A stretch of 45,830 nucleotides of DNA from Lachnospiraceae bacterium (GTDB lineage Bacteria > Bacillota > Clostridia > Lachnospirales > Lachnospiraceae). The position numbers and the translations under genes are program-made. The stretch spans positions 1 through 45,830 of the forward strand of contig JAFZRH010000053.1 of assembly GCA_017619975.1 (NCBI GenBank), written 5' to 3'. The notes beneath the pieces were generated by a model. It had not been told where the DNA came from and did no database searches. It was given only the letters and a program-made list of their open reading frames with translations. The first letter of the stretch is position 1. Every line of letters begins with the position of its first letter. Below, in pieces: positions 10,012-27,788 of the stretch.

Positions 10012-10100
10012 CGAACACAACTTCCCGGCGTCCATTGAGGAGACCTGACATTTCCTGCATTCAGGAAGGTCTCCGAACGGATGCCGGGAAGTTTGTGTCG
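10012..10100. repeat. Long covarying hairpin element, copy A
   Basis: Outer arms CGAACACAACTTCCCGGCGTCC and GGATGCCGGGAAGTTTGTGTCG pair over almost 22 bases. Inside are stem 1 (GGAGACC 10039-10045 with GGTCTCC 10068-10074) and stem 2 (TTCCTG 10052-10057 with CAGGAA 10062-10067) closed by a CATT loop. It shares loop motifs with 25684-25772 and 27696-27788. It lies between convergent genes and may terminate both. Confidence 0.82.
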
Positions 10101-10162
10101 TGGCAGCGCGCTGCTGCAGCCGGTCTGTTTTAGCGGTCGTTCACGGACATTGCTTTTCGTAT

Positions 10163-10819
10163 TTATTTTCCTCTAACCTTCGCGTTCGGGCAGTGGTCCG
10201 CGATCCAGCTGCGGACGAAATCGAAGTCTTCGCTTTCCGCGTAGACCTGATTGTGTCCCAGCAGCTGATTGACGTAGATCACATGCCGGCGCTTTACGGC
10301 TTTTACCTTCCGCACGTACGCAAACACCGACGTGGATACGTCACGCGTCGCGGAAACAAGACCCGCGCCGAGCGTCGTCAGATTCCCGGCAGCAAGTCCC
10401 ACCACGGCGGTGAGCCAGCCGAGGGCCTGCGCCTTCTCGAAGGTCTGCTTCATATAGCGGCTTTCCACGCCCTCTTCATCCATCGTAATGAGGACCCAGT
10501 AGCTCCAGCCGAAGATCTTCGCCGCGATCAGGTAAGCGATGACCGCCAGCACCAGAAGGACCGCCAGCAGGACCAGCATCCATCTGTAAAAATGCCAGTA
10601 TTCTTCAAAGCTTGTCATAACGCCCTCGATCAGGTGCGCCACGAGCATGAACAGCAGGACGATGCCGAAGGCCAGCAGTACCACCCGAAGGACGGAGATC
10701 AGGATCGTCGGGTTTTTCCGCATGTCAAACTTGTAGATCCAGCGGTATTTTCCGTCATCCCCCCGCCAGATATTTTTCGTGACCTGCGTGCCGGTCACTT
10801 CTTCCCGTTTTTCATTCAT
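10163..10819 (-). CDS. Unrecognised membrane protein with two N-terminal helices
   Basis: A 218-aa protein whose family is not recognised. A charged N-terminus (to about residue 30) is followed by two membrane helices (about 38-60 and 75-98). A soluble region of about 110 residues follows, beginning WVLITMDEEGVESRYMKQTF; its beta-rich look and position after a two-helix hairpin recall PH-like membrane proteins. The start at 10819 is chosen over an upstream in-frame codon: it has GAAAGAGG in front and overlaps the stop of the preceding lipoprotein gene by 8 bases (ATGAATGA), indicating translational coupling. Confidence 0.7.
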   Translation of the reverse strand: MNEKREEVTGTQVTKNIWRGDDGKYRWIYKFDMRKNPTILISVLRVVLLAFGIVLLFMLVAHLIEGVMTSFEEYWHFYRWMLVLLAVLLVLAVIAYLIAAKIFGWSYWVLITMDEEGVESRYMKQTFEKAQALGWLTAVVGLAAGNLTTLGAGLVSATRDVSTSVFAYVRKVKAVKRRHVIYVNQLLGHNQVYAESEDFDFVRSWIADHCPNAKVRGK

Positions 10820-11372
10820 GTTCGGCCTCTTTCTTTTTTTTCTCCACATTTTGTTTTGCCTGCTCCAGCTCGGCTTCGGTCAGATTGCGAAAACCGGGCA
10901 GTTCTTCACTGAAAGCGTACCGGTCGTCAAACAGTTTCCGGATCTCGGGCTGGTTGAATTCTTCCAGCCGGAACAGTACGCTCGAAAACATGTTGGTACA
11001 GGGATGAATGACGATCTCCTCGTCCGGAAGACCGTAATACCGAAGCAGCGCCTTTATTTCTTCCGGCGACAGGTCAGCCCCGTATGCTTCCGCCAGAAAG
11101 GACTCCGGTTTCTTTTTGTTCGGAACGACGCTGTAAAAAGCGTTCCCCGCGCCGCCGAAACCCTGGACCACCAGGATCGACAGGCCTTTTTTTGTATCCA
11201 TGTCAAAATAGAAAGGCCATTTTTCCCGGATCGCATCTAAAAGCGCCTGATCTTCCGCCGACACCGAAGGGGCTGCCGTCTCCTCTCCCGTTTTCTTCCC
11301 GCAGGCCGCGCAGATCAGCAGAAGGCACAGCGTGCCCAGACACAGACAAAACATAAGAGATCTCCTTCTCAT
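10812..11372 (-). CDS. Putative lipoprotein of unknown function
   Basis: A 186-aa protein with a positively charged start, a hydrophobic stretch and a CAAC signal ending at Cys24, so lipid anchoring is likely though the -3 residue (Cys) is not typical. The mature part is acidic and helical, ending in a Lys/Glu-rich tail (KQNVEKKKKEAEHE). No family was recognised. It is the first gene of a coupled pair with the membrane protein at 10163-10819 and lies 26 bases after an anti-sigma-like gene, so all four genes from the ECF factor may form one operon. Confidence 0.7.
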   Translation of the reverse strand: MRRRSLMFCLCLGTLCLLLICAACGKKTGEETAAPSVSAEDQALLDAIREKWPFYFDMDTKKGLSILVVQGFGGAGNAFYSVVPNKKKPESFLAEAYGADLSPEEIKALLRYYGLPDEEIVIHPCTNMFSSVLFRLEEFNQPEIRKLFDDRYAFSEELPGFRNLTEAELEQAKQNVEKKKKEAEHE

Positions 11373-11398
11373 TCCGTTCTCCTTTCCGCCGCCGGGTT

Positions 11399-12013
11399 CT
11401 AATACCCGATCCCTTCCAGGACCTTAAGATTGACCGTATTGGACAGGTCGCTTATCATGCTGAAGAACAGGTCATTCTTTTCATCCGTCCAGAAGTAACT
11501 GTTGAAAATGTCATTCACACCGAGTACCGCCTCGACCGTTTTATCTCCCGCCTGAAACTGCTGTGTCTCGGTCTCTTTTCCGAAAGGCGCCGACGGATCG
11601 ATCTGTGTATTGCCGCTGATAGGACCGATCTTTAACAGCAGCGTTGCTTCCGTGGAAACAACGGTGATGATCTGATTCGGCGGATCGATCTCTTCCGGCA
11701 GGCGGATAACCTCCGCATTCTCCGGCAGCCATTCCCAGCGAACTTCCGGCAGGGGGACGGGACCGCGGTCTTTGAAAAGCGGTACAACGCCAAGCGTCAG
11801 CACCAGGACGGCAGCAGCCGCCAGTCCCTGCCAGAGATGCCGGCCTCTTTTCCGTCCGGAGCGGGCCGTTGGCTGAGACAGAAGCAGCTGGCGCATCTTC
11901 TCGTCAAAAGCAGGATCCGGCTCCAGCGGCTCGGCCGCCTCCGCTTCCCGCAGCCGGTTTTTGAGCAGAAGATGCGCTGCCTCTTCCAGTAATTTTTCTT
12001 CCCGTCTCTTCAT
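11399..12013 (-). CDS. Putative anti-sigma factor, ECF pair 1
   Basis: A 204-aa single-pass membrane protein with a cytoplasmic N-terminus of about 60 residues (KRREEKLLEEAAHLLLKNRL at the start), a helix around residues 62-80 and an extracytoplasmic domain resembling the DUF4367-type sensor region. The ATG at 12013 overlaps the sigma-factor stop by four bases (ATGA), the classic arrangement of sigma/anti-sigma pairs. No zinc-binding HxxxCxxC motif is present, so it is not a ZAS-type anti-sigma factor. The inducing signal is unknown. Confidence 0.75.
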   Translation of the reverse strand: MKRREEKLLEEAAHLLLKNRLREAEAAEPLEPDPAFDEKMRQLLLSQPTARSGRKRGRHLWQGLAAAAVLVLTLGVVPLFKDRGPVPLPEVRWEWLPENAEVIRLPEEIDPPNQIITVVSTEATLLLKIGPISGNTQIDPSAPFGKETETQQFQAGDKTVEAVLGVNDIFNSYFWTDEKNDLFFSMISDLSNTVNLKVLEGIGY

Positions 12014-12537
12014 GCCTGCGCCTCCTTTCCGCTTTTCTTTATCCGCTGCCGGAGCCGGGATACCGTTTTCTGCACGGCAGCCGGCGTCAGATCCATCAGA
12101 GCCGCCAGATCCCGGTAGGACAGACCGTACGCGAAATGACCGATCAGGATCCGCTGCTCTTTTTCCGAAAGCACCCCGAGAATGTCTTTCAGCTGTTCTG
12201 CCGCTTCCGTCTGTTCCGCGTCCCTCTGCCAAAACGGATCCGGCAGATCCTCCGACCATTCCTCTTTCAGCTCCACCTCGCTCCGCTGCGTGCGCTGCCG
12301 GAGCAGATCCCGCGCCCGGTTCATCACGCAGCAGGTCAGAAAGCTTTTCCGCTTTTCGGGCGCCATGTTCCGGAGCAGCTCCGTGCGCGGCAGCAGCTTC
12401 AGAAAGACATCCTGCACGGCGTCCTCGGCATCGTGCCGATTCTGCAGGATCCCGAAAGCCGTGCCGAGCAGGCGGGAGCGCTGTTCCCGGTACAGCTCGG
12501 ACAAGATATTCATTTCCGGCGGATCCTTCCCGGCCAT
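12010..12537 (-). CDS. ECF RNA polymerase sigma factor, pair 1
   Basis: A 175-aa sigma-70-family factor. Region 2 is visible as LLGTAFGILQNRHDAEDAVQ followed by DVFLKLL; region 4 ends in an HTH, SYRDLAALMDLTPAAVQKTV. The start has AAGGAG 8 bases upstream. It should direct RNA polymerase to promoters of its own regulon, held inactive by the membrane protein encoded next. A run TTTTGACG and a TATATATTAC stretch upstream (about 12591-12620, minus strand) may hold its promoter, but the spacing is not convincing. Confidence 0.92.
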   Translation of the reverse strand: MAGKDPPEMNILSELYREQRSRLLGTAFGILQNRHDAEDAVQDVFLKLLPRTELLRNMAPEKRKSFLTCCVMNRARDLLRQRTQRSEVELKEEWSEDLPDPFWQRDAEQTEAAEQLKDILGVLSEKEQRILIGHFAYGLSYRDLAALMDLTPAAVQKTVSRLRQRIKKSGKEAQA

Positions 12538-12666
12538 AGCGCTCTCCTTTGACTGCCTTCTTCCGTGGAGCTGTCCTTTTTAACCCCTCTGTAATATATA
12601 ACGTTTGGCAGCGTCAAAAGCAGACAGCATCGGAACAATTTTTAAAAAATTTTTTTTTGCCGGATA

Positions 12667-12697
12667 CAGAAACAGGGCACGCGGCGGGCGTGTCCTG
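12667..12697 (-). terminator. Terminator after thioesterase gene
   Basis: Read on the minus strand: CAGGACACGC, a five-base loop and GCGTGCCCTG (one G-T pair), followed by TTTCT. It lies about 25 bases after the thioesterase stop. Confidence 0.6.
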
Positions 12698-12720
12698 CTT
12701 GCTGGTCCTTCCGGTTTTTC

Positions 12721-13116
12721 TTATTCTCCCATGCAGAAGAAAGTGACGTCGCCCTCCAGCAGAAGTTTTTCGTTCTGATAGACGCGCGTGCGGATGAAGG
12801 CGAGCGTGCGGCCGCGCTTCACGACTTCGGCGCGGGCGATCAGCTTCTCGCCGGCCTTGCCGCCGCTGATGAAGCGGAAGCCCGCTTCCACGGAGACGTA
12901 GCGGCGGGAATCGCTGCGGGTCATAAGACCGGCGGTGACTTCAGCCAGGCTCATCAGCATGCTGCCGTGGACCGTGCCCATGTGGTTTAAGGCGTGGGGG
13001 CCGGCATCGGCTTCGCAGACGGCTTCCTTCTCGTTCACGGAAACGGCGCGGATATGGTTATGGATCATGAACGCATTTTTGGTATTGGCTGTTTCCAGCT
13101 GTTCTTCGAAGGTCAT
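12721..13116 (-). CDS. PaaI-type hotdog thioesterase
   Basis: A 131-aa single hotdog-fold protein. The diagnostic segment HALNHMGTVHGSMLMSLAEV carries the Asn/His/Gly pattern of the PaaI/YbgC-like acyl-CoA thioesterase active site. The C-terminal strand ends LEGDVTFFCMGE. It probably hydrolyses an acyl- or aryl-CoA thioester in the cytoplasm; the substrate cannot be inferred. The start has AAAGGAG upstream. It appears monocistronic, between the ppdK terminator and its own. Confidence 0.88.
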   Translation of the reverse strand: MTFEEQLETANTKNAFMIHNHIRAVSVNEKEAVCEADAGPHALNHMGTVHGSMLMSLAEVTAGLMTRSDSRRYVSVEAGFRFISGGKAGEKLIARAEVVKRGRTLAFIRTRVYQNEKLLLEGDVTFFCMGE

Positions 13117-13133
13117 GCTATACTCCTTTTTTC

Positions 13134-13166
13134 AGAAAAATCCCATGGCGGTCAGGTCATGGGATT
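13134..13166 (-). terminator. Terminator after ppdK
   Basis: On the minus strand, AATCCCATG and CATGGGATT form a perfect 9-bp stem with a 10-base loop and run straight into TTTTCTG. It lies about 85 bases after the ppdK stop, beyond the GC-rich repeat at 13190-13238. Confidence 0.85.
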
Positions 13167-13189
13167 CGTTTTCAGGCGTCCTTAAGTCG

Positions 13190-13238
13190 CCCCCTCCTGT
13201 CACCTTCGGTGACACCCTCCCCCGCTTCCGGGGGAGGG
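13190..13238. repeat. GC-rich palindromic repeat (CCCCTCCTGTCACC type)
   Basis: Contains an inner hairpin TGTCACC-TTCG-GGTGACA and a CCTCCCCC / GGGGGAGG hairpin side by side. Such double hairpins are common intergenic repeats in clostridial gut genomes. It lies between the ppdK stop and its terminator. Confidence 0.75.
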
Positions 13239-13251
13239 CAAGGACTTTTTC

Positions 13252-16110
13252 TTATTTGTTTCTCTGTTCGCCGAAGGTCTTCTTGACTTCTTCCCAGCCG
13301 GCCACCAGGCTCTTGACGCCCGCGGAGAGGAAATCCTTCAGTTCGGCACCGGCATCCATCGCGGCGGAGCTGAACTTCTCGCCGGCATCCTTCAGGGCAG
13401 CTTTCGCCGCTTCGACTTTGCGCTCGACTTCTGCCTGGAACTGCTCAGCCTCTTCCTTTTCGGCCGCTTCCTTGGCTGCCTCGGCCGCGATGGCCGCCTG
13501 CGCCGCCGCTAAGCGGGCGATCGGTACGCGGAACGGGCTGCAGGACACATAGTCCAGACCGATCTCGTTGCAGAACTCGATGGAGCTCGGATCACCGCCG
13601 TGCTCGCCGCAGATACCGACGTGCAGCGCCGGATTGACGGGCTTGCCCAGATCGATGGTCATCTTCATTAGCTTGCCGACGCCGTTTCTGTCCAGACGGG
13701 CGAACGGATCGTTCTCCAGGATCTTTGCGTCGTAGTAGTAGCCGAGGAACTTGCCCGCATCGTCACGGCTGAAGCCGTAGGTCATCTGGGTCAGGTCGTT
13801 GGTGCCGAAGCAGAAGAAGTCCGCTTCCTTCGCGATCTCATCGGCCGTTAAGCAGGCGCGCGGGATCTCGATCATGGTGCCGACCTGGTAAGGGATCTTC
13901 ACGCCGGCGGCAGCCAGCTCTTCCTCAGCGGTCTCGACCACGAACTTCTTCACATAGACGAATTCCTTGAGCTCGCTGGTCAGCGGGATCATGATCTCGG
14001 GGCACATGGTCCATTCCGGATGATTCTGCTGGACCTTGATGGCCGCGCGGATGATGGCGCGGGTCTGCATCACGGCGATCTCCGGATAGGTGACGGCCAG
14101 ACGGCAGCCGCGGTGACCCATCATCGGGTTCACTTCGTGCAGAGAGCTGACCAGGTTGTGGATGTATTCGATACTGCGGCCGGTGTTCTTCGCTAAGAGA
14201 GCCATCTCTTCTTCGGTGTTCGGAACGAACTCATGCAGAGGCGGATCCAGCAGACGGATCGTGACCGGCGTGCCTTCCAGCGCTTCGTACAGCTTCTCGA
14301 AGTCGTCCTGCTGATACGGCTGGATCTTGGCCAGAGCGACTTCGCGCTCTTCCTTGGTCTCGGCGCAGATCATCTCGCGGAAAGCCGCGATACGGGTCGC
14401 TTCGAAGAACATGTGCTCGGTACGGGTCAGGCCGATGCCTTCCGCGCCCAGCTCACGGGCCTTCCTCGCATCCCGCGGCGTATCGGCATTGGTGCGGACC
14501 TTTAAGGTGCGGTACTTGTCGGCCCAGCCCATGATGCGTCCGAAATAACCGGAGATGGAGGCGTCCACGGTCGGGATAACGCCGCCGTAGATGTTGCCGG
14601 TGGTGCCGTCGATAGAGATGAAGTCGCCTTCATGGAAAGTCTGGCCGCCCAGCGTGAAATACTTGGCTTCTTCGTCGATCTTGATGTCACCGCAGCCGGA
14701 GACGCAGCACTCGCCCATGCCGCGGGCCACGACGGCCGCGTGGGAGGTCATGCCGCCGCGGACGGTCAGGATGCCTTCCGCCGCCTTCATGCCGGTGATA
14801 TCCTCAGGGGAGGTCTCCAGACGGACCAGAACGACCTTTTCCTTGCGGGCTTTCCAGGCCACCGCGTCGTCGGCCGTAAACACGATCTTGCCGCAGGCAG
14901 CGCCGGGGGAGGCGCCAAGGCCCTTGCCTAAAGGCGTCGCAGCCTTTAAGGCAGCCGCGTCGAACTGCGGGTGCAGCAGGGTATCCAGGTTGCGGGGATC
15001 GATCATGGAAACGGCTTTCTTCTCGTCGATCATGCCTTCATCGACCAGATCGCAGGCGATCTTTAAAGCGGCCTGCGCGGTGCGCTTGCCGTTGCGGCAC
15101 TGCAGCATGTAGAGCTTGCCGTTCTCGATGGTGAACTCCATATCCTGCATGTCGCGGTAGTGATCTTCCAGAAGCGCGCAGACCTTTACGAAATCTTCGT
15201 AAGCGGCCGGGAACTTCTCTTCCATCTGCGCGATCGGCATGGGGGTCCGGATGCCGGCCACCACGTCTTCGCCCTGGGCGTTGGTCAGGAACTCGCCCAT
15301 CAGCTTCTTTTCGCCGGTGGCGGGGTCGCGCGTGAAGGCGACGCCGGTACCGGAGTTTTCATTCAGGTTGCCAAAGACCATGGGCATGACGGAAACGGCG
15401 GTGCCCCAGGAATACGGGATGTCGTTGTCACGGCGATACACGTTCGCGCGGGGGTTGTCCCAGCTGCGGAACACGGCCTTGATGGCTTCCTTTAACTGCA
15501 CGATGGGATCGGACGGGAAGTCTTCGCCCAGCTGCGCCTTGTATTCGGCTTTGAACTGCTCGGCCAGTTCCTTAAGATCAGCGGCGGTCAGCTCCACGTC
15601 GAACTTCACGCCTTTCTTTTCCTTCATCTGGTCGATGAGCTGCTCAAAGTACTTCTTGCCGACTTCCATGACGACGTCGGAGAACATCTGGATAAAGCGG
15701 CGGTAAGAGTCGTAAACGAAACGCTCGAACTTGGGATCCGGGTTGTTCTTGATCATCGAGGCAACGACGTCATCGTTTAAACCGAGGTTCAGAATGGTGT
15801 CCATCATGCCGGGCATGGAAGCGCGGGCACCGGAACGGACGGAGACCAGGAGCGGATTCTCCAGGCTGCCGAACTTCTTGCCGTTGATCTCTTCGATCTT
15901 CGCAACATATTCCATGACCTGCTTCATGATCTCGTCGTTGATCTGGCGGCCGTCCTCGTAGTACTGCGTGCAGGCTTCGGTGGTGATGATGAAGCCCTGC
16001 GGCACCGGCAGGCCGATGTTGGTCATTTCAGCCAGGTTGGCGCCTTTGCCGCCCAGCAGGTTGCGCATGGTGGCGTTGCCTTCGCTGAAGAGGTACACCC
16101 ATTTTTTCAT
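13252..16110 (-). CDS. ppdK: Pyruvate, phosphate dikinase with C-terminal extension
   Basis: Interconverts pyruvate, ATP and phosphate with phosphoenolpyruvate, AMP and diphosphate. All modules are present: an N-terminal ATP-grasp domain (NLLGGKGANLAEMT), the phosphohistidine loop GGMTSHAAVVARGMG with catalytic His457, and the C-terminal PEP-binding TIM barrel with Cys834 in the ICGEHGGDP motif. The ATG at 16110 matches the family N-terminus and has AGGAGG upstream; the open frame extends 41 codons further without support. The family normally ends soon after PFRVPIARLAAAQAAI at about residue 874. Here 78 more residues follow, rich in Ala, Glu and Lys and probably helical or coiled-coil. A TATAAT at 16202-16207 gives a leader of roughly 85 bases. 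Confidence 0.97.
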   Translation of the reverse strand: MKKWVYLFSEGNATMRNLLGGKGANLAEMTNIGLPVPQGFIITTEACTQYYEDGRQINDEIMKQVMEYVAKIEEINGKKFGSLENPLLVSVRSGARASMPGMMDTILNLGLNDDVVASMIKNNPDPKFERFVYDSYRRFIQMFSDVVMEVGKKYFEQLIDQMKEKKGVKFDVELTAADLKELAEQFKAEYKAQLGEDFPSDPIVQLKEAIKAVFRSWDNPRANVYRRDNDIPYSWGTAVSVMPMVFGNLNENSGTGVAFTRDPATGEKKLMGEFLTNAQGEDVVAGIRTPMPIAQMEEKFPAAYEDFVKVCALLEDHYRDMQDMEFTIENGKLYMLQCRNGKRTAQAALKIACDLVDEGMIDEKKAVSMIDPRNLDTLLHPQFDAAALKAATPLGKGLGASPGAACGKIVFTADDAVAWKARKEKVVLVRLETSPEDITGMKAAEGILTVRGGMTSHAAVVARGMGECCVSGCGDIKIDEEAKYFTLGGQTFHEGDFISIDGTTGNIYGGVIPTVDASISGYFGRIMGWADKYRTLKVRTNADTPRDARKARELGAEGIGLTRTEHMFFEATRIAAFREMICAETKEEREVALAKIQPYQQDDFEKLYEALEGTPVTIRLLDPPLHEFVPNTEEEMALLAKNTGRSIEYIHNLVSSLHEVNPMMGHRGCRLAVTYPEIAVMQTRAIIRAAIKVQQNHPEWTMCPEIMIPLTSELKEFVYVKKFVVETAEEELAAAGVKIPYQVGTMIEIPRACLTADEIAKEADFFCFGTNDLTQMTYGFSRDDAGKFLGYYYDAKILENDPFARLDRNGVGKLMKMTIDLGKPVNPALHVGICGEHGGDPSSIEFCNEIGLDYVSCSPFRVPIARLAAAQAAIAAEAAKEAAEKEEAEQFQAEVERKVEAAKAALKDAGEKFSSAAMDAGAELKDFLSAGVKSLVAGWEEVKKTFGEQRNK

Positions 16111-16201
16111 ACAATATTTCCTCCTGAAATTAATGTGCAAGTATTCTTTCAACCGGCGGCTGTTTCTCTTTTCAGACCGCCTGATAAAATTGCCGCGTAG
16201 T

Positions 16202-16207
16202 ATTATA
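16202..16207 (-). promoter_or_regulatory. -10 element of ppdK promoter
   Basis: A perfect TATAAT on the minus strand, 92 bases before the ppdK ATG. The -35 region (TTCCCT, 17 bases upstream) is weak and overlaps a small GTTCC-N5-GGAAC hairpin after prs. Confidence 0.6.
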
Positions 16208-16238
16208 GCACAAAGGGTTCCAAAAGGGAACACCCGGA

Positions 16239-17366
16239 TCAGGTCATTTTCAGTTTGCTCGTGATCTTTTCGCTCGGCGTAATGTAGCGTTCCAGCGAAG
16301 TATTGTGATTCAGGGTGTCCACGACGCTGGCCAGATATTCGCTCATATCCACGCTGGTATAATAATCTCGCTCCAGCGTTTCCGGACTCTGATAGATCAG
16401 GTTCGTAGTCAGCACGTTGTCGATCACGCCTTCCTCCACCGCTTTGTCAAAGCGGTCCATCCCGCTGGTAAACAGACCGAAGCTCGCACACGCAATGACT
16501 TTCTTCGCGCCGCGGCTCTTTAACTGCCGGCCCACGTCGATGATGCTGTCGCCGCTGGCGATCATATCGTCCACCACGATGGCGGTCTTGCCGGTCAGAT
16601 CCTCGCCCAGATATTCGTGCGCCACGATGGGGTTCCGGCCGTTCACGATCCGCGTGTAATCGCGCCGTTTATAGAAGATGCTGACGTTGACGCCCAGAAT
16701 ATTGGCAAAATAGATCGCCCGCTCGACAGCGCCTTCATCCGGAGAAATGATCAGGACGTTGTCCTTGTCGAAATTCTCATGGATGTTCATATTGATCATG
16801 GTCTTGACGAACTGGTAGGAAGTGGGCAGATTTTCGAAGCCCATCAGCGGAACCGCGTTGCTGATACGGGGGTCGTGTGCGTCGAAGGTCAGCAGATTGT
16901 CCACCCCCATGGCCTGCAGCTCCTGCAGCATCATGGCGCAGTCCAGCGATTCCCGGGCCGTGCGGCGGTGCTGGCGGCTCTCGTACAGGAAGGGCATGAT
17001 CACGTTGATGCGGGTGGGCTTGCCGGTACAGGCGGAGATCACCCGCTTTAAATTCATGTAGTGCTCATCCGGAGACATCGGATTCATGCGGCCGTTCATC
17101 TCGTATTCCAAGCTGTAGTTGCATACGTCCAGCATGATATACAGATCGTAGCCCCGGACGGTTTTCGGCAGGATCGCCTTGGCTTCCCCGCCGCCGTAGC
17201 GATTCAGTTCCACCGGCAGAAGATAGGAATCCTCCACGTATCCGGCCTGTCTGGTCTGACGGTCCGCCCGCCAGGCCACCAGATAGGCATTCACCTGCTT
17301 CGCCAGCTTTTCACAGCCGGGCAGAGCGATAATCCCCAACGGACTGAAGTGCTTTAATGCCTCCAT
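16239..17366 (-). CDS. prs: Ribose-phosphate pyrophosphokinase (clostridial long type)
   Basis: Makes PRPP from ribose 5-phosphate and ATP for nucleotide, His and Trp synthesis. The 375-aa protein is longer than the usual 315-aa form. It keeps the PRPP-binding loop VVDDMIASGDS (residues 264-274), the FDAHD segment (161-165), and an R-QHRRTARES flexible-loop region (131-140). N-terminal insertions (about residues 30-110) set it apart from classical Prs and fit a clostridial subfamily. The start has AAAAGGAG upstream. It is followed by ppdK on the same strand, but the latter has its own promoter. Confidence 0.93.
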   Translation of the reverse strand: MEALKHFSPLGIIALPGCEKLAKQVNAYLVAWRADRQTRQAGYVEDSYLLPVELNRYGGGEAKAILPKTVRGYDLYIMLDVCNYSLEYEMNGRMNPMSPDEHYMNLKRVISACTGKPTRINVIMPFLYESRQHRRTARESLDCAMMLQELQAMGVDNLLTFDAHDPRISNAVPLMGFENLPTSYQFVKTMINMNIHENFDKDNVLIISPDEGAVERAIYFANILGVNVSIFYKRRDYTRIVNGRNPIVAHEYLGEDLTGKTAIVVDDMIASGDSIIDVGRQLKSRGAKKVIACASFGLFTSGMDRFDKAVEEGVIDNVLTTNLIYQSPETLERDYYTSVDMSEYLASVVDTLNHNTSLERYITPSEKITSKLKMT

Positions 17367-17438
17367 ACTGCTTCTCCTTTTGACAGAAAAATGGGTGGAA
17401 CCAAGGCTTTTTCATCATATCACAGGCAGGTCGGCTTG

Positions 17439-18428
17439 TCACGGCTTTCCGGCCTGTTTTTTCGCCAGACGGATATCCGGCCCGGTAAAGGGCAGGATCC
17501 GGTAAGAGCCCGCGATCCGGGACGTGACACGGTTCGTATACAGATCCTCCATCTCTTCCAGCGTAATATTTCCGGTCAGGATGGTGCCAAGTTCCCGGAT
17601 CTCCCGCTCGTTGATCATGGTAAAGAGAGCATTCTGCGCCAGACGGCGGCTCGTAAACTCCGTGCCGAGATCATCGATCACCAGAAGCTGCGCCCGGTTC
17701 ATCTGTTCGATCAGCAGCGGATCGCCGTTTTCTTTATCGAAAGCCAGCGCTTCCGCCGCGCCGAAGAATTCCTGCGCGGTGACCAGACAGGTCTCATAAC
17801 CCTGCGCGGCGACTGCCCGCGCGATGCAGCGGCCCAGGAAGGTCTTGCCGGTCCCGACCGGTCCGGTCAGGAAAAGACCGCCCCGTTTTTCGGAGAAACG
17901 GTCCGCATACTCTTCCGCGGCCGCCAGAACGTTTTCCATGACCCGGCGCGCCGTCAGACCGCCGAAAGCCCGAAGCGGCTCGGCATCATCGTACCAACTT
18001 AAGGAAAAATCTTCAAAGCGGGCTTCCGGTTCCCGGGACAGCGGCGTTCTCCCGACGGCTTCTTCCAGCGTTTCGGCAAAACAGCGGCACTCCCTCCCTT
18101 CAAAACGGCCTGTATCCCGGCAAAGCGGGCAGGTATAGACGGGCTCCAGATCCGCCGGCGTATATCCTTTGGTGCGAAGAAGACTCTCCTTTTCCCGGCT
18201 GATCCGGCGCATCTTTTCTTTCACGAGCGCCGCTTTTTCCGGATCGCCGCCGAACGCGCTGCGGATCCGGTCCATGGAAAGGCTCAGACGCTGCTGTTCC
18301 AGCTGTTCCAGCTCCGGCAGCTCCTGCCGGATGCGGGCCGCCTTTTCATCCGCCAGAAAGCGGGCCCGGCGCCGCCGCTCCCGATACAGCTCTTCCACCG
18401 CCTCGTATTGGTCTTTCGTTATCGGCAT
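17439..18428 (-). CDS. DnaC/DnaI-like helicase loader ATPase
   Basis: A 329-aa AAA+ ATPase that probably loads the replicative helicase. In order: a helical N-terminal region (1-95), a zinc-binding Cys cluster (Cys100, 103, 114, 116 in CPLCRDTG...CRC), Walker A GPVGTGKT at 189-196, and Walker B LLVIDDLG at 248-255. A further arginine-rich segment (NRVTSRI) is near the end. The ATG at 18428 was chosen because it lies one base after the stop of the DnaD-like gene with GGAGG upstream; the two are translationally coupled. The longer upstream frame is the antisense-biased Lys/Arg-rich overlap of that gene. Confidence 0.92.
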   Translation of the reverse strand: MPITKDQYEAVEELYRERRRRARFLADEKAARIRQELPELEQLEQQRLSLSMDRIRSAFGGDPEKAALVKEKMRRISREKESLLRTKGYTPADLEPVYTCPLCRDTGRFEGRECRCFAETLEEAVGRTPLSREPEARFEDFSLSWYDDAEPLRAFGGLTARRVMENVLAAAEEYADRFSEKRGGLFLTGPVGTGKTFLGRCIARAVAAQGYETCLVTAQEFFGAAEALAFDKENGDPLLIEQMNRAQLLVIDDLGTEFTSRRLAQNALFTMINEREIRELGTILTGNITLEEMEDLYTNRVTSRIAGSYRILPFTGPDIRLAKKQAGKP

Positions 18429-18429
18429 T

Positions 18430-19563: not shown

Positions 19564-19619
19564 CGCCCAAAGATCCTCCGCTTTTCCGTGCGATACCCCC
19601 TGCACGGGAAAGCCTCTTC

Positions 19620-19647
19620 AGTATAACACAGTTTTTCGGGGATGCAA
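19620..19647 (-). promoter_or_regulatory. Promoter of dnaD-dnaC-like operon
   Basis: On the minus strand, TTGCAT (19642-19647), a 16-base spacer and TATACT (19620-19625). A hairpin between this and murC (GGACGGG and CCCGTCC arms with an inner CCCC/GGGG stem, 19649-19686) could end murC transcription. Confidence 0.65.
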
Positions 19648-19765
19648 GAGGACGGGCCGTCCCCAAAAGGGGGCGAAACCCGTCCTGTGGAAAATGTGGA
19701 AAAGTGGATAAATCGTCAAAAACCCTTGCCGGAGCTTGTTTTCAGGCACCGGCTTTATCCCCTGT

Positions 19766-21244: not shown

Positions 21245-21395
21245 AGTTCTCCTTCCGCCCGGCGCCATGGCCGTACACGAAAATCCGCCCCGATCACGGG
21301 ACGGATTTATTATAGCGCAGCCCGAAGGGAAGAGCAACAAAAGATTTGAGCGGGGCTACAGACAGAACATCTTTGTCCTATAACCCGAGTTTTCA

Positions 21396-21908
21396 TCAGG
21401 GAATGTTAAAATGCAAAAATTCATTTTGTCCGAGAAAGCAGACTTCTCCCGTTTTCGGATCGACCAATTCTATGGTGCCTAAACTGATTCGATACTCTCC
21501 CTGGCTCAGCTTCACTGAACGGGGAAGAACACCAATGACGCAGTTGTCTCCCGGCGGCAGTACACGTGCGATGCCTGCTATTACGGCTGTTCCCTGCGAC
21601 AGATCGGAAAGGGAGGGATATAAAGCTTCATACATTTCACCAAGCGTTTTTTTATACAAAACAGCCGGATCGCCTATGCTCATTTCATACGCCGTGTTAT
21701 TGATGATAGTAAGGGAGATGCCTCCGCTTTCTGGCAGGTATTGTATCTCCGCATCAATGCTGCCGCCAACGCCTGCCGGATCCAACCGGTCAAGCTTTAT
21801 TTTCAATATCTTCTCCGCTTCCGGAGAATCGGCGCAGGCATTCAAAAGGACGGTGATCAGAAAAAACAAGATGAGAAGCCTGTACATTATTTTATTTGTT
21901 TTTTGCAT
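21396..21908 (-). CDS. Lipoprotein with Ig-like (Big_14-type) domain
   Basis: A 170-aa protein with a type II signal peptide (lipobox LLNAC, lipid Cys about residue 25). The mature region looks like a small beta-sandwich: ISLTIINNTAYEMSIGDP, later PPGDNCVIGVLP and SQGEYRISLG, a pattern resembling bacterial Ig-like domains in secreted Clostridia proteins. Function unknown. ATG 21908 is chosen for AGGAGGG at good spacing. It follows the anti-sigma-like gene of ECF pair 2 by 47 bases, so it may be the third gene of that operon. Confidence 0.75.
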   Translation of the reverse strand: MQKTNKIMYRLLILFFLITVLLNACADSPEAEKILKIKLDRLDPAGVGGSIDAEIQYLPESGGISLTIINNTAYEMSIGDPAVLYKKTLGEMYEALYPSLSDLSQGTAVIAGIARVLPPGDNCVIGVLPRSVKLSQGEYRISLGTIELVDPKTGEVCFLGQNEFLHFNIP

Positions 21909-21955
21909 CCGTTCCCTCCTCCGAAACATTCCGAGCACGGCCTTTCCCCTTCAGA

Positions 21956-22819
21956 TTACTCTCCAACGATTCTTTTTTCCGGGTCCGCATAGCGCATCAA
22001 CTTTTCAAAAGAATCTGTCGCAGGCAGATACATAAAGACCCGTTTTCCGTCTTTGAGAAAGACGATTTCATAGCCGTTCAGGCTTTTTTCACTATCGTTT
22101 TCTGCGTGTTCTTCCCAGACATAATAGCTTTTTTCATCAAAAACAGTTTCTTGAAAACCGTTTTTGACAAACATTTCCAGGCCCTCCCGGGAAAGATATG
22201 TCGTACAAGTAAGCATCGTGCGGCGCTCCGCATCATAAGCACTTAACGGCTCTGTACTAACGGCAGGATCCACGGCCTTATACAGAAGAGAAATATAAAC
22301 GCCGTCGCGCTTGGACACCGAAACAAGCTGATACTCTTCCGGAGGAAGATCGGGAACAAAGAATACTTCCCCCGCGGATCCGGGATCCTGCTTCTGTGCT
22401 TCAAGGAAGTCTTCTATACTGCCATAAAAGGACAAATAGTCTATCTCTTCCGCCGGCAGGATCGTACCGGTGCTCTCTTCCGGAAGCGTCGTTTCCGCCG
22501 GGTCCGATGATGCCTCCGTGCTGGCCGCCAAGGACTTTGCCGCAGTAATCACCTCTATAAAAACCATAGAAGTATCCGGCAGGGTGAGCGCGGACGTTCC
22601 CTCCTGCGCAGGCATCGTCTCTGCGGGCACTGCCCGTCCAAACAGCTTCGGCGCATTCATACCCAGCAGCACGGCCAGCGCCAGCCCGGCGGCCAGCGCC
22701 GCATAGCGGGCAGCCTTCGGCCAAAGCGCTTTTTTCTTGCCCGTTTTCGGCGCCTCTGCCTCTTCGATATATTCCGGCCGGATCTTCCCCATGGCCTTCA
22801 GCAGATCAGTGTCTTTCAT
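21956..22819 (-). CDS. Putative anti-sigma factor, ECF pair 2
   Basis: A 287-aa single-pass membrane protein: cytoplasmic residues 1-33 (DTDLLKAMGKIRPEYIEEAE, a motif typical of clostridial sigma-partner proteins), a helix at about 36-55, then a Ser/Thr/Pro-rich linker and an outer domain that contains no recognised fold. Its ATG overlaps the sigma-factor stop by four bases. It likely sequesters the sigma factor until an envelope signal arrives. No zinc motif is present. Confidence 0.75.
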   Translation of the reverse strand: MKDTDLLKAMGKIRPEYIEEAEAPKTGKKKALWPKAARYAALAAGLALAVLLGMNAPKLFGRAVPAETMPAQEGTSALTLPDTSMVFIEVITAAKSLAASTEASSDPAETTLPEESTGTILPAEEIDYLSFYGSIEDFLEAQKQDPGSAGEVFFVPDLPPEEYQLVSVSKRDGVYISLLYKAVDPAVSTEPLSAYDAERRTMLTCTTYLSREGLEMFVKNGFQETVFDEKSYYVWEEHAENDSEKSLNGYEIVFLKDGKRVFMYLPATDSFEKLMRYADPEKRIVGE

Positions 22820-23379
22820 GGTTTAAAACCTTCTTCTTCCAAATAAACCCGCAGACGTTTTCGCAGCCGGTACAGGATGGATTTCACCTTGCTTAAGGAG
22901 AAATCATAGCGTGCGGCGATCTCTTCGATCGGTTCCAAGAACCAGTATCTTCGAATGAAGACGCGGCGCTGCTCCGGCGTGCATTCATCCAGGAAGCGAT
23001 TGATGCACTCAGCCAGAAGCGTTTCTTCGACCGTCTTTTCTACGCTCTCGTTTCCCGGCAGGATCTCCTTCATCTCCTCCGTCAGCTCGCAAAGCTCCGC
23101 CTGGCGCTTTAAGCGCGATCGCCTCTGGCATTCGTTGATCGCCAGATTACGGATGATCTCCCCCAAATAAGCGAAGAGATAGGTCCTCGGCTCGTGCGGC
23201 GGGATGGACTGCCACGCCTTCAGATACGTATCGTTTTCGCACTCTTCCGCGGCCTGCGGGTCCTGCAGGATGCTGTTTGCCAGGCGGCGCAGACGCGCGC
23301 CGTATTTTTCCGCCGTCAGGACAATGGCAGACTCATCGCGCGACAAAAACAGGTCCACGATCCGGGAATCGTCCGTCAT
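22816..23379 (-). CDS. ECF RNA polymerase sigma factor, pair 2
   Basis: A 187-aa sigma-70-family protein. Region 2: KYGARLRRLANSILQDPQAA, then EECENDTYLKAW, a variant seen in many Clostridia. Region 4: CTPEQRRVFIRRYWFLEPIE, then the HTH RYDFSLSKVKSILYRLRKRL. ATG 23379 is preceded by AAAGGAGAG; an upstream extension of 29 codons has no ribosome site. It is coupled to the downstream membrane protein by ATGA overlap. Confidence 0.92.
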   Translation of the reverse strand: MTDDSRIVDLFLSRDESAIVLTAEKYGARLRRLANSILQDPQAAEECENDTYLKAWQSIPPHEPRTYLFAYLGEIIRNLAINECQRRSRLKRQAELCELTEEMKEILPGNESVEKTVEETLLAECINRFLDECTPEQRRVFIRRYWFLEPIEEIAARYDFSLSKVKSILYRLRKRLRVYLEEEGFKP

Positions 23380-23494
23380 GCTCTCTCCTTTCGGCGTACG
23401 GTTTTCAAGTGGAAGGCCTTCACTTTCTATTACAACAATTTGCCCGGCGCGGTTGCGCGGCCGCACCGGTTTTTGAAGGTTTTTTAGAAGCTTT

Positions 23495-24538
23495 TCAACG
23501 CTGCCCGGCCAGCCAGTCCTGCCGGGTCATGACGCTCACGTGCCCCGTCCGTTTCTCGTGCATCAGCGGCACATCCACCGCCTCGGAACGCCACTGATAG
23601 CGAAAGCCGCACTTCTCCTGGACGCGTTTTGACTTCGTATTGCCCTCATAGTACCCGATCCAGACCTTCTGCATGCCGAGGTCTTCAAAGGCATGGCGGA
23701 GCATCTCCCTTACGGCTTCCGGCATGATTCCCTGCCCCCAGAACGGTTTGCCAAGCCAGTATCCCATCTCGCATTCATCGTCCCGGTCGGTCATATCCGT
23801 ATGACCGTTTAATTTCAGCTCGATCGCCCCGATCGCCTTTCCATCCTCCTTTAGGCAGATCGCATACGCCTCTTTGCCGCCTAAGACGTTCCGGATCACG
23901 GAGCGGCTTTCGTCCAGGCTTTTGTGCGCCGGCCATCCGGCGATCGGCCCCACGTCCGGATCACTGGCATAGCGGAACAGATCCTCCGCATCGCCTGCCT
24001 CCCAGCGGCGCAGGATCAGCCGCTTCGTCTCAAGGGTTCTTTCTATAAACAGCTCCATGTCCAGACAGTTCCAGCTGCCGATCGGCATCGTACAGTCCCG
24101 GCTGCCGCAAAGCTTAAAACCGACCGCTTCATAACAGTGCCTGGCGCTTTCATTCTTTTCAAAAACGCCCAGTCCGATCCTCGAAGCAGGCAGGTGCTCT
24201 TTCACATATTCGATCCCGAGCCGCAGCATTTTCGTACCGCAGCTTTGCCCTCTTTTGGAAGGATCCACGATGACAAAGCCGAAGCGGACGGCGCTGTCAT
24301 CGTCCGGTTCGGGAAAGCGGATGATGAAATGACCGACGATCTCTCCCTTTTCATCCACGGCGGTCAGCGGGAAGAAGCGTCCCGCTTCGATCTGCGACGC
24401 ATAATTTTGATTGATATCCTCGCCGGTCAGCGGATACTTGTTGTATCGGACCGACGACCACAGGTACAATTCTTCCTCCGAGCGGATCCAGCCGGCGATC
24501 ACCGACGCATCTTCTCTGACATATTTTCTCAGGATCAT
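23495..24538 (-). CDS. Tandem GNAT acetyltransferase
   Basis: A 347-aa protein with two complete GNAT folds. Domain 1 (about 1-160) has the acetyl-CoA loop DPSKRGQSCGTKMLRLG. Domain 2 (about 168-347) begins ETKRLILRRWEAGDAEDLF, a RimJ-like start, with the loop LGKPFWGQGIMPEAVREML and a SKRVQEKCGFRYQW end. Each could transfer an acetyl group to an amine; substrates unknown. The domains are of different subtypes, so this looks like a fusion, not a recent duplication. It follows the LysR gene by 46 bases and may be co-transcribed. Confidence 0.87.
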   Translation of the reverse strand: MILRKYVREDASVIAGWIRSEEELYLWSSVRYNKYPLTGEDINQNYASQIEAGRFFPLTAVDEKGEIVGHFIIRFPEPDDDSAVRFGFVIVDPSKRGQSCGTKMLRLGIEYVKEHLPASRIGLGVFEKNESARHCYEAVGFKLCGSRDCTMPIGSWNCLDMELFIERTLETKRLILRRWEAGDAEDLFRYASDPDVGPIAGWPAHKSLDESRSVIRNVLGGKEAYAICLKEDGKAIGAIELKLNGHTDMTDRDDECEMGYWLGKPFWGQGIMPEAVREMLRHAFEDLGMQKVWIGYYEGNTKSKRVQEKCGFRYQWRSEAVDVPLMHEKRTGHVSVMTRQDWLAGQR

Positions 24539-24584
24539 TCCGATTTCCTCCCTGCCATCTTATTTTCAAAACTTTTCGGATCCT

Positions 24585-25541
24585 TTACTGCATCTCTTGA
24601 AACTGCTCTTCCAGGATCTGCATCAGCCGCCGCTTGTAAGCCGGGAAGACGGATTCCCGGTGCCGGATCAGCGCCACGTCCGAATCGATGGGGGCGCCCT
24701 CCCAGTCGACCGGCAGGATCAGCAGACGCTCTTCTGCCTTCCGGTTCCAGTCCAGACGGCGGCTGAGCCTGGTCATCTGCTGCGGGAGCAGGCAGCCGGC
24801 CAGGTCCGTCCGCGCGATGGCATCGAAGGTCTCCAGGCGGTTGGAGGAAAAGACGATCCGGAAAGTCAGGCTCTGCTTTTTTGCGGCCGCATCCAGGATT
24901 GCCCGCAGGCGGCTGCCGGCCGGCGCCGAGACGAGCGGAAAGCGGCTGATCTCCCGCAGGCGAATGCCGTTCTGCTGCCAGCGGGCTGCCGCCGCGCCTC
25001 TGTTTTCTCCCATGATTTCTGCGAGCAGCGGCCGGGAGACCAGGAAGGAATAGTGTTCCTTCAGCAGCGTCTTTCGTTCCAGCTTTTCGCTGCCGCCCGC
25101 CTGCTGGACCACGAGCGCCATATCCAGAAGCCCCCGCTCCACCTGCTGCTCCAGAACGTCGGAGAACTCACCGTTAATCTCCAGTTCCACGTTCGGATAT
25201 TCACGCTTAAAACGCGCCAGGATCGGCGGAACGATCTCCGAATAACGGGAAAAGGGAACGCCCAGCTTCACCGTACCGACGACCGCTTCGCCTGCATCGT
25301 CCAGGGCTTCGCTGATGCCCTGCTCGATCAGGCGGATCTTCTGCAGGGATTCCGCCAGGATGCGGCCGCTTTCGGTTAAGGCAAAATTCGGCCGGCGCTC
25401 GAACAGCTTCGTATGATATTCCTCTTCCAGGCTGCGGATGTGGCCGCTGATGCACTGATAGGACACACACTGCTGCTCGGCAGCTTTCTGCATGCTCTTG
25501 CACTCGGCTACGGCCAAAAAAGCTTCAAAGCGCTGATTCAT
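24585..25541 (-). CDS. LysR-family transcriptional regulator
   Basis: A 318-aa regulator with an N-terminal winged HTH (residues 1-60: FLAVAECKSMQKAAEQQCVS, HIRSLEEEYHTKLFERR) and a C-terminal effector-binding domain (from about residue 88, TVKLGVPFSRYSEIVPPILA). ATG 25541 is the family start with AAGGAG just upstream. The frame upstream is open only because it reads through a palindromic repeat. It is divergent from the IlvD-like dehydratase gene across 486 bases; a TGCAA-N5-TTGCA dyad upstream of that gene is a plausible binding site. Confidence 0.92.
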   Translation of the reverse strand: MNQRFEAFLAVAECKSMQKAAEQQCVSYQCISGHIRSLEEEYHTKLFERRPNFALTESGRILAESLQKIRLIEQGISEALDDAGEAVVGTVKLGVPFSRYSEIVPPILARFKREYPNVELEINGEFSDVLEQQVERGLLDMALVVQQAGGSEKLERKTLLKEHYSFLVSRPLLAEIMGENRGAAAARWQQNGIRLREISRFPLVSAPAGSRLRAILDAAAKKQSLTFRIVFSSNRLETFDAIARTDLAGCLLPQQMTRLSRRLDWNRKAEERLLILPVDWEGAPIDSDVALIRHRESVFPAYKRRLMQILEEQFQEMQ

Positions 25542-25565
25542 TTTTCTCCTTTCCTGCCCTTCCTG

Positions 25566-25614
25566 CCCTCTCCCGGACGCGGGAGAGGGTGGTGCGAAGC
25601 ACCGGGTGAGGGCG
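25566..25614. repeat. GC-rich palindromic repeat (CCCTCTCCCGG type)
   Basis: Hairpin CCCTCTCCCG-GACG-CGGGAGAGGG followed by GGTGC-GAA-GCACC, with an outer CCCTC / GAGGG pairing. This double hairpin is a widespread intergenic repeat type in bacteria and lies just upstream of the LysR start. Confidence 0.75.
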
Positions 25615-25683
25615 ACTTGTCCGGGACTCCACGCTTCGCGTCCGGACGAACTGTACTGTGACACATACCCCGCCTCGCTGCCT

Positions 25684-25772
25684 CGATAAAACTTTTCTCG
25701 GCCCACTTCAGCGGCCTTCCGGAATGCGAGAGTAGTCAGGCCGCTTCACGGGGCACTCGAAAAGTTTATTCG
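25684..25772. repeat. Long covarying hairpin element, copy B
   Basis: Outer arms CGATAAAACTTTTCTCGGCCC and GGGGCACTCGAAAAGTTTATTCG. Stem 1 pairs AGCGGCC (25710-25716) with GGCCGCT (25739-25745). Read on the minus strand, the loop holds CCTGAC and GCATTCCGGAAGG, matching copies A and C. The rest of 25615-25830 holds further short palindromes but no gene. Confidence 0.82.
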
Positions 25773-25872
25773 GGCGCGCTCGGCGCCTTGCCATTACCGG
25801 ACGCATTCGTCGACGGACTCTCAAATATTCTTTTGCAAATCTATCTTCAGTAAATCACATTTATTCTTCTTC

Positions 25873-25887
25873 TGCAAGCTGTTTGCA
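25873..25887. promoter_or_regulatory. Candidate LysR-type binding dyad
   Basis: TGCAA-N5-TTGCA, centred about 78 bases before the expected start of transcription of the IlvD-like gene, near the usual position of a LysR recognition site. Related TTTGCAAA and GTTTGCC sequences flank it at 25831-25840 and 25921-25927. Confidence 0.45.
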
Positions 25888-25922
25888 AGATTTTTCTTTC
25901 ACTTCGGCAAGAAAAAAGCAGT

Positions 25923-25951
25923 TTGCCTTCCCGGGATTCTCATGCTACACT
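25923..25951 (+). promoter_or_regulatory. Promoter of IlvD-like dehydratase gene
   Basis: TTGCCT at 25923-25928, a 17-base spacer, and TACACT at 25946-25951, about 77 bases before the ATG. Confidence 0.72.
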
Positions 25952-26027
25952 GTAAGCGAAAACAAGACGGGGCCCTTCCGTGAACGCAAATGGTCCCGCT
26001 TCTTACGGAAAAGAAAGGAGCTGTCAG

Positions 26028-27701
26028 ATGGAAAGCTTCAAAGGCAATCACGATCCGTCCAATCCCCAGGAAGCTTATTTTGTCGGCCTTATGAATTCCT
26101 GCGGCTACCGCACGGAAGACTTGAAAAAGCCGATCATCGGCATCGCCAATTCGTATACGGACGTCAATCCCGGCCACAAAGCCTTTAAACAGCTGGTCGA
26201 ATATGTGAAAGAAGGCATCTGGGCTGCCGGCGGCGCGCCGGCCGAGTTTAACGTCCCGGCCCCCTGTGACGGCATGGCCCAGGGCGACGGCATGCATACG
26301 ATCCTGCCGCAGCGCGATCTCATCGCCTCCTCCATCGAGGCCATGGCCCGCGCGCACGGCTTTGACGGCATGGTCTTTCTTTGCAGCTGCGACAAGATCG
26401 TCCCCGGCATGCTGATGGCAGCCGCCGCGTTAAATAAACCCTCCCTGTTTCTGACCGCCGGCAGCATGATCCCCTATGAAGCGCCGGAAGGCACTTACGT
26501 GACCCCGGACTTAAAGGAATCCATCGGCGCGCGGAACGTGGACAGGATCGACGAGGCAACCTTCACCCGCTTTAAGGAAAATATCTGCTTCTCCTGCGGC
26601 ACCTGCTCCATGTACGGCACGGCCAACACCATGGGCGTCTTCACGGAAGCCATCGGCATCTGCCCCATCGATTCCACGACCATGCTGTTTTGCTCCGGTG
26701 CGAAATACCGCATGGCGCGGAGCGTCGGCGAGCGGATCGTGGCCCTGACGAAGGAAGGTGTTCGCTTCCGGGATATCGTGACCGAAAAGAGCCTCATCAA
26801 CGGGCTGCGGCACGTGGCCGCGACCGGCGGTTCCACCAATGCCCAGCTGCACATCTGCGCGCTGGCGAAAGTGATGGGAATCCCGATGGATCTGGGCCGC
26901 TTCGACGAGATCCAGCGCGAGGTGCCCTGCGTAGCCAAGTTCAAACCGAGCAGCAAGTACAGCATGGTCGATTACTATAAAGCCGGCGGCGTCGGCGCGA
27001 CCTTAAGAGCGATCCGGAAATACCTGAACGAAGACTGCCGGCTGGCCATGGGCGGCACAATAGGTGAGTTCTTAGACGCGTTTAACCGGCCAGTAAACCC
27101 CGAAATCATCCACACGACGAACGATCCGCTCTACCCGGACGGCTGCTATGCGGTGCTCTACGGGAACTTGGCGCCGGGCGGCTGCCTGGTCAAAAAAAGC
27201 GGCGTGGTCCCGGAAATGTTCCACCACCGCGGGCCGGCCGTCTGCTTCGACTCGGAAGACGAGCTGCGCCAGGCCATGGCGAACAAGGAGATCAAGCCCG
27301 GCTGCGTGCTGATCATCCGCTATGAAGGACCGAAGGGCGGGCCGGGCATGCGCGAGATGTCCATCCCCGCCGCCATGCTGGTCGGCATGGGCCTGCACAC
27401 AAGCGTTGCCATGGTGACGGACGGCCGCTACTCCGGCGCTACCCGCGGGCCGTGCATCGGTCACGTAACACCTGAAGCCTGGGACGGCGGGCCCATCGCC
27501 GCCGTGAAGAACGGGGATATGATCGAGATCGATATCGACGCGCACCGCATCCATCTGGAGGTGAGCGATGAGGAGATCTGCCGGCGGCTGAGAGAAGTTA
27601 AGCGGCCGCAGAACCATCCGGCCACCGGGTTCATGAAAGCCTACCGCGAGATCGTGGGCGGCGTGAATGTGGGCTGCACCTGGCTGTACGGTCGGGAATA
27701 A
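26028..27701 (+). CDS. IlvD/Edd-family dehydratase, substrate uncertain
   Basis: A 557-aa iron-sulfur dehydratase. Family blocks are clear: [47 protein letters not shown] (Lys123 is the usual carbamylated metal-site residue), [13 protein letters not shown], and late [11 protein letters not shown] and [21 protein letters not shown]. Candidate cluster ligands are Cys80, Cys121 and Cys193. The sequence looks divergent from true dihydroxyacid dehydratase, and no ilv genes are nearby; a LysR regulator and a hydroxyacid dehydrogenase flank it. A sugar-acid dehydratase is therefore as likely as IlvD. ATG 26028 has AAAGGAG at good spacing; a GTG 48 bases upstream is not supported. The stop codon lies within a repeat arm. 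Confidence 0.85.
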
Positions 27702-27788
27702 ACTTTTCAAGCGCCCCTTGAGGCGACCTGACCTCAGACGTTCTGTATTCAGAAAGGTCGCCGAAGCGGGCTGAGGAAAGGATTCGTC
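27696..27788. repeat. Long covarying hairpin element, copy C
   Basis: Left arm AATAAACTTTTCAAGCGCCCC and a weaker right arm GGGCTGAGGAAAGGATTCGTC. Stem 1 pairs GGCGACC (27722-27728) with GGTCGCC (27756-27762). Stem 2 pairs TTCTG (27741-27745) with CAGAA (27750-27754) around a TATT loop. The left arm contains the TAA stop of the dehydratase gene. Confidence 0.8.

Follow-up and report, generated by a model that had tools for sequence, protein, structure and literature searches.

Small palindromes folded on one strand and dispersed through a Lachnospiraceae genome are probably mobile

The locus and its folded palindromes

The stretch of DNA analyzed here (the window; 45,830 nucleotides of contig JAFZRH010000053.1, Lachnospiraceae bacterium, assembly GCA_017619975.1) carries three copies of an imperfect palindrome of about 111 nt that forms a rod on one strand. 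An initial annotation, made from the letters of the sequence alone, had described them as long intergenic hairpins; the copies lie where it placed them, with the stem 1 and loop words that it quoted, and extend further than it indicated. They belong to a family that is dispersed over the genome, covaries in its arms, is present or absent at orthologous gaps of related genomes, and conserves mismatches that can be stacked by one strand only. Taking these features together, we consider it rather probable that the family consists of genus-restricted, non-autonomous mobile palindromes, in which one folded strand is kept and the arms stay complementary mainly via arm-to-arm copying in DNA. The three copies are listed below with their scores against R1, a covariance model derived from an alignment of 24 copies.

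Copy A: about 10000..10110, plus strand; canonical core, stem 1 GGAGACCT/AGGTCTCC; R1 match of 89.8 bits
Copy B: 25672..25784, minus strand; complete canonical element, both termini fitting the end pattern of the family, stem 1 AGCGGCCT/AGGCCGCT; R1 match of 123.4 bits
Copy C: about 27683..27799, plus strand; canonical core, stem 1 GGCGACCT/AGGTCGCC, degenerate at both ends; R1 match of 87 bits

Copy A is flanked by convergent genes (8554-9975, plus; 10163-10819, minus), and copy B by divergent genes that Pfam assigns to the LysR family (24585-25541, minus) and the IlvD/Edd family (26028-27701, plus); copy C covers the final codons of the IlvD/Edd-family gene and provides its stop codon. Measured against dinucleotide shuffles, the folds of copies A, B (on its own strand) and C have z values of -9.48, -4.35 and -2.38, respectively, with 5 of 200 shuffles folding as well as copy C.

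Architecture of the element

Read from the outside inwards on the folding strand, the element consists of GCCGAGCGCGCCCGA, an arm, GCCC, TTGA, stem 1 (a helix of 8 bp), GAC and the loop; the return side of the same strand reads GGA, stem 1, GAA, GGGC, the second arm and TCGAGGCAGCGAGGC. The GCCC/GGGC clamp thus sits between an inner hairpin and variable arms (e.g., ATAAACTTTTC, ACACAACTTTTC, ATATTCTGTC and ATCAGGCTTTTC), each of which is matched by its complement on the opposite side. The loop measures 14-19 nt, and in 31 of the 48 copies with the canonical core its last letters are ATTC and one further base. Other members of the family retain the ends and arms around a different core. Two traits that the initial annotation had assigned to the family do not extend to it: the outer arm AAACTTTTC is merely one of many arm sequences, copy A itself having another, and the second stem TTCCTG/CAGGAA has to be rejected as a family feature, a run of at least four pairs inside the inner loop being present in only 13 of the 48 canonical copies.

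At the outer end of stem 1, TGA stands against GAA, giving tandem G.A mismatches, in 47 of 49 aligned rows (one exception is an antisense match), and at its inner end GAC faces GGA or GGG in 41 of the 49. At the ends of the element GA lies opposite GA in 45 of the 73 places counted in two genomes (see below); elsewhere the ends differ or are fully complementary. Hence, much of the loop sequence that had been called fixed turns out to be tandem G.A mismatches, and since these can be stacked by one strand alone, the folded single strand looks selected. On the grounds of base-pair chemistry, GA against GA stacks well on the folding strand, whereas the complement pits TC against TC, which speaks for selection of one folded strand as opposed to protein recognition of an inverted repeat in duplex form. 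The perfect terminal inverted repeats that mark miniature inverted-repeat transposable elements (MITEs) of the DDE type are lacking, the terminal helix having conserved mismatches.

Covariation and the nature of the pairing

Alignment A2 comprises 24 copies chosen by BLAST and not by pairing, copies A and C among them. Of the 564 cells in its written structure, 95.0% are paired, and both sides have changed in 15 of the 24 pairs; 0 of 500 shuffles attained either figure. The cells changed on both sides number 44, as against 7.3 +/- 2.3 in the shuffles, and when the partner is shifted by 1-3 columns the pairing falls from 95% to 39-52%. Because both the shuffles and the slid versions fall short, the covariation is no compositional accident, and the compensatory changes that the initial annotation had read from three copies hold across this larger set. 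RNAalifold, applied to A2, proposed 23 pairs, 13 of them with both-side changes. Within stem 1, A2 has 15 changes that affect both sides, none of the one-side wobble kind, and 2 of 192 cells unpaired; in the 48 canonical copies, which were themselves selected for having 7 or all 8 pairs of this stem in Watson-Crick form, there are 12 different helices, and 380 of 384 cells are Watson-Crick, none G.U and 2 A.C.

The balance of mispairs bears on whether the pairing is kept in RNA or in DNA. Over the whole model (57 distinct rows, 1290 cells), 1216 cells are Watson-Crick, 18 G.U, 17 A.C and 39 other, and the arms in a looser alignment have 32 G.U and 58 A.C; for comparison, seven tRNAs from the fetched loci have 12 G.U in 153 pairs. 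Thus, the stems do not tolerate G.U more than A.C, and with the two equally rare there is no trace of RNA wobble. Further, in 60 pairs of copies that are at least 80% identical, we counted 89 both-side Watson-Crick changes versus 48 one-side changes (11 of these G.U). This excess is the pattern expected if one arm is copied from the other, and template switching is known to produce double changes in hairpins (PMC8794818); nevertheless, it is not proof of template switching, as DNA hairpins that undergo rapid compensation would leave the same picture.

A known RNA family was considered and rejected: Rfam gave no match in the window at gathering scores and none on the element in four element loci at E<=1, its ZTP riboswitch and two sub-threshold matches all lying away from the elements. 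That ZMP/ZTP riboswitch (L019:870-953, contig C28 of the window's own genome; 52.4 bits, gathering score 39) is situated about 550 nt from an element.

Family size and phyletic distribution

In the window's own genome (G000; 2.1 Mb, 94.45% complete; other G numbers denote comparison genomes), BLAST with copy B returned 52 pieces and R1 gave 63 matches at E<=0.1. Seven of the latter were set aside, namely five on the opposite strand of a counted place, one partial (C16:46250) and one weak match in the window (C65:6790), leaving 56 places, short-core and composite forms included. G010, from the same genus, has 18 R1 matches, one of which is the opposite strand of another, and hence 17 places; of the resulting 73 places, 48 have the canonical core. 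At E<=0.001 R1 was positive in 11 of 61 genomes, all of them within 16 genomes of one genus, and in 0 of 45 genomes from other genera, in a search whose stricter filters lost weak matches. The further copies that the initial annotation anticipated are therefore plentiful in the genome itself and extend to its relatives, although the nine positive relatives other than G010 have just 1 to 4 matches each, mostly with another core. The end pattern is matched exactly 52 times in G000, 18 times in G010 and 0-3 times in each of the other 14 genomes of the genus. Scanning with the core pattern retrieved nothing from viral contigs and four stretches from genome contigs, all in one metagenome-assembled genome (Lachnospiraceae bacterium isolate Tb.RUG.433); the latter scan may have passed over records from the window's genome itself or from one very close to it.

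The median identity of canonical-core copies to their nearest neighbor is 82%, suggesting that many copies are old, and several copies are truncated or composite. A 77-nt short-core form occurs at three loci with 97-100% identity, two copies being identical and one at 97%. We found no account of this palindrome family in the open-access literature, a coverage outside which most subscription journals fall.

Presence and absence at orthologous gaps

Comparison with relatives reveals insertion polymorphism at all three copies in the window and at two further places. The gap holding copy A spans 207 bp in G000 and 84 bp in G010, where it has a plain terminator-like hairpin; the G010 gap orthologous to that of copy B has no element; and at copy C the G010 gene stops four codons earlier with no element following, a comparison that covers the left junction only, the DNA further right not being syntenic. 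The element at C42:23102 has no counterpart in any of seven relatives with both flanks (7/7), in two of which the flanking genes share TAAATG. Likewise, at C10:17027 six of seven relatives have nothing of the kind and G007 has a short-core element; the orthologous junction is short in five of the seven. In G001 (L144) this junction is occupied by an unrelated hairpin repeat (GGGGCGGCCATTGGCCGCCC), which suggests that operon junctions such as this one collect hairpins.

Five of the 17 places in G010 are orthologous to places in G000, and there the elements differ in core or sequence and are clearly in opposite orientation at two of the five. Such differences imply that the gaps have been re-used or their contents replaced.

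Genomic context and the case for an RNA element

The 56 places in G000 are dispersed, intergenic, non-coding and shorter than 200 bp. By the calls of a home-made gene caller, on which all our context counts depend, nearly all are intergenic, with overlaps at copy C (19 nt) and C70 (11 nt) and a further one at C28 that is a probable start-call error. The elements lie a median of 33 nt behind the upstream gene versus 81.5 nt from the downstream gene, and of the 54 copies in co-directional gaps, 42 have the same orientation as the genes (p 5e-5; 38 of 50 when each gap is counted once, and 27 of 35 among canonical-core copies). A skew in the kinds of flanking gene pairs was considered and dropped: 15 of 72 places are convergent and 3 divergent, against 3 and 4 of 34 background gaps of at least 60 nt from the same loci, and neither difference is significant (p 0.17 and 0.21, respectively).

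At 8 of the 73 places the flanks pair with each other at a score of at least 14, compared with 0.07 expected from swapped flanks; one of these, at C73:28062, forms the core of a larger composite, and C66 adds one at score 12. In about eight places a terminator-like hairpin, complete with A/T tracts, has the element in its loop, and seven of the eight are between convergent genes; given this small share of the 73, insertion into terminator loops was rejected as a general rule. Three of the terminator places are the near-identical 77-nt copies, and since the terminator arms of the three resemble one another too, the element may have traveled together with these arms. One of the three is C43:9313, whose terminator arms are common to its two sister copies and whose gap in G010 and G011 has plain terminators of different sequence; this fits insertion without proving it.

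These regularities give some room to an alternative wherein the family is a structured RNA element of transcripts, i.e., an intercistronic or 3'-end hairpin that stabilizes, processes or terminates mRNA, is maintained because of its fold in RNA and was spread by duplication. The sense bias and the closeness behind upstream genes agree with it, as do the copies in terminator-like hairpins; moreover, structured RNAs often contain tandem G.A pairs. However, such an element should favor G.U over A.C, which the stems do not, and it is hard to reconcile with the 12 of 54 copies that are antisense, the reversed orientation at orthologous sites, the absence from relatives at conserved operon junctions and the lack of Rfam matches. 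Thus, of the structured 3' RNA put forward in the initial annotation, the orientation and placement behind genes stand, whereas the pairing pattern and the inverted orthologous sites tell against it, and we regard the RNA explanation as unlikely, albeit as one to be taken seriously. The sense bias could equally come from replication-strand bias.

The search for a mobilizer

The initial annotation had also suggested recognition by a Y1/REP-type transposase, a proposal that found no backing. A matching alternative would have the family as palindromes of the repetitive extragenic palindrome (REP) type, moved by a Y1 transposase, either a REP-associated tyrosine transposase (RAYT) or an IS200-like one, that was lost or is encoded in the missing 5% of the genome. 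Its attraction is that the Y1 transposase domain (PF01797) occurs in 7 of the 16 genomes of the genus, G010 included, and that the strand which folds is in most cases the coding one, in many bacteria the template of the lagging strand, on which Y1 enzymes act. Yet PF01797 has 0 matches in G000, the genome richest in elements, and R1 at E<=1 detected no element in the eight Y1 loci fetched from relatives (among 13 Y1 matches listed). Nor does the presence of Y1 go with element number: G005, G006, G007, G009 and G014 have elements and no Y1, while G011 and G012 have Y1 and no elements. The ends of the elements lack the GTAG tag, and the palindromes at the three RAYT-like loci that we inspected are different ones, two of these loci having the GGGGACGGTTC type. 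In sum, we deem mobilization by a Y1 enzyme improbable. Integron attC sites were considered as a further candidate and set aside.

Palindromes with GGACCTGACAAAG at RAYT-like loci (L119:2880-2924 and L121:417-459) have the 8-mer GACCTGAC in common with the element core; the sharing of this word, seen at two of the three loci, is probably due to chance. A different palindrome family (GTGCCAAAAGGAACCGTCCC...) occurs in the window as inverted copies at 640-682 and 34141-34183, and since related GGGGACGGTTC palindromes stand at two of the three RAYT-like loci, it may be the REP family of the genus.

A probably mobile palindrome, apparently kept as a folded strand

We return to the reading that we favor, namely non-autonomous palindromes that move within one genus. 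Here the initial annotation finds support for its proposal of a mobile palindrome with a selected folded form: the many copies, their presence or absence at orthologous gaps, the strand-specific G.A mismatches and the covariation all point in that direction. We advance the following plausible course of events. An enzyme would recognize the folded DNA strand during mobilization, probably while it is single-stranded at the replication fork. The sites where insertions survive would be those that follow stop codons, the junctions of operons and the interior of terminator hairpins. The complementarity of the arms would be kept mainly by template switching within the hairpin, rather than by stepwise compensation in RNA.

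Several observations weigh against this reading. None of the compared gaps offers a base-exact empty site, the gaps differing outside the element too, and the flanks of the 73 places show no common target-site duplication by eye, no statistic having been computed. One end pattern has 70 exact matches in G000 and G010, and on inspection no pair of them encloses a transposase; one widely spaced pair (contig C102 of G010) encloses a Na+/H+ antiporter gene. No mobilizer was found in a search that covered Y1 as its sole transposase family. The sense bias is explained as well by an RNA, and the counts designated A3 were drawn from an alignment that was fitted to the structure.

A bolder version holds that the palindrome spreads and diversifies as folded single-stranded DNA independently of Y1, with an enzyme reading the constant ends and the core bracketed by G.A mismatches, each arm being rewritten as a copy of its partner, the cores swapped as modules and terminator loops favored as sites; we think this doubtful. 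Least probable of all is that these are decayed remains of old palindromes that share ancestry and have no present function or mobility, for despite the modest identity of the copies and the truncated or composite state of several, neutral decay would break pairing that 95% of cells retain, and it accounts neither for the G.A mismatches kept in 47 of 49 rows nor for a 77-nt form with two identical copies and one at 97%.

Relationship to known small repeats

For all their resemblance to BOX and REP elements, these small and probably mobile palindromes form a new family, in which the evidence for a retained folded strand and for pairing restored in the DNA is unusually clear. The BOX elements that Streptococcus pneumoniae has, together with RUP and SPRITE, are likewise small interspersed repeats found in close relatives only and having no transposase of their own (PMC3049150). 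Like the present elements, they are about 100-200 nt long, strongly folded, intergenic and modular, constant outer modules enclosing an exchangeable middle. The two differ in sequence and fold, the cores with tandem G.A mismatches belonging to the Lachnospiraceae family, and BOX elements reside in AT-rich Streptococcus DNA, with movement proposed to occur by an insertion sequence (ISSpn2) acting via similar terminal repeats (PMC3049150); the present family has no known partner of that kind.

The likeness to REPs, and to the bacterial interspersed mosaic elements (BIMEs) and REPINs associated with RAYTs of the Y1 class, lies in being extragenic palindromes with many, sometimes clustered, copies and imperfect stems. 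REPs measure 20-40 bp and bear a tag, either GTAG or CGTC, the former being a defining mark of GTAG REPs (PMC3733652). In contrast, our elements are of about 111 nt with ends of the form GCC...GGC, are untagged, have no Y1 in their host and are not found beside the fetched Y1 genes.

ERIC, RUP, Correia and other MITEs are comparable as imperfect palindromes of about 100-150 bp whose insertions lie in intergenic DNA that is transcribed. Target-site duplications, however, are typical of MITEs, and none was seen in the Lachnospiraceae elements.

To the small interspersed repeats of bacteria these palindromes add a strand-specifically folded family with dozens of copies. The genus suits a hunt for the mobilizer, as species rich and poor in copies can be compared; should the mobilizer prove to be something other than a Y1 enzyme, it would reveal an additional means by which hairpin DNA is moved. 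The copies also form a natural set for asking whether covariation that lacks G.U intermediates arises by template switching in DNA, in which case covariation alone would be no proof of a functional RNA.

Other features of the window

Upstream of copy A, the window has a relative of the element and two short rods:

Short-core relative: 6909..6996, plus strand; ends and arm type of the family, both ends fitting the end pattern, the core swapped for TTGGAAGCGAAGCGGACC; R1 match of 59.9 bits
Short rod with another core type (GAGGGGCCTTTTTCGTGCCCC): 6790..6861, plus strand; weak R1 match (E 0.009), excluded from the 56 counted places; fold z -3.60
Second short rod: 6995..7059, plus strand; 94% identical to 6799-6863, immediately after 6909-6996; no R1 match of its own

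Beside copy B, at 25560-25615, lies another hairpin-rich, repeat-like stretch (CCTCTCCCGGACGCGGGAGAGG, GGTGCGAAGCACC), which matches two places in G010 (C6 and C15). Towards the end of the window, adjacent genes of the gamma-glutamyltranspeptidase family (PF01019; 41620-43506 and 43526-45361) have arisen by tandem duplication and contain direct repeats whose similarity reaches 85%.

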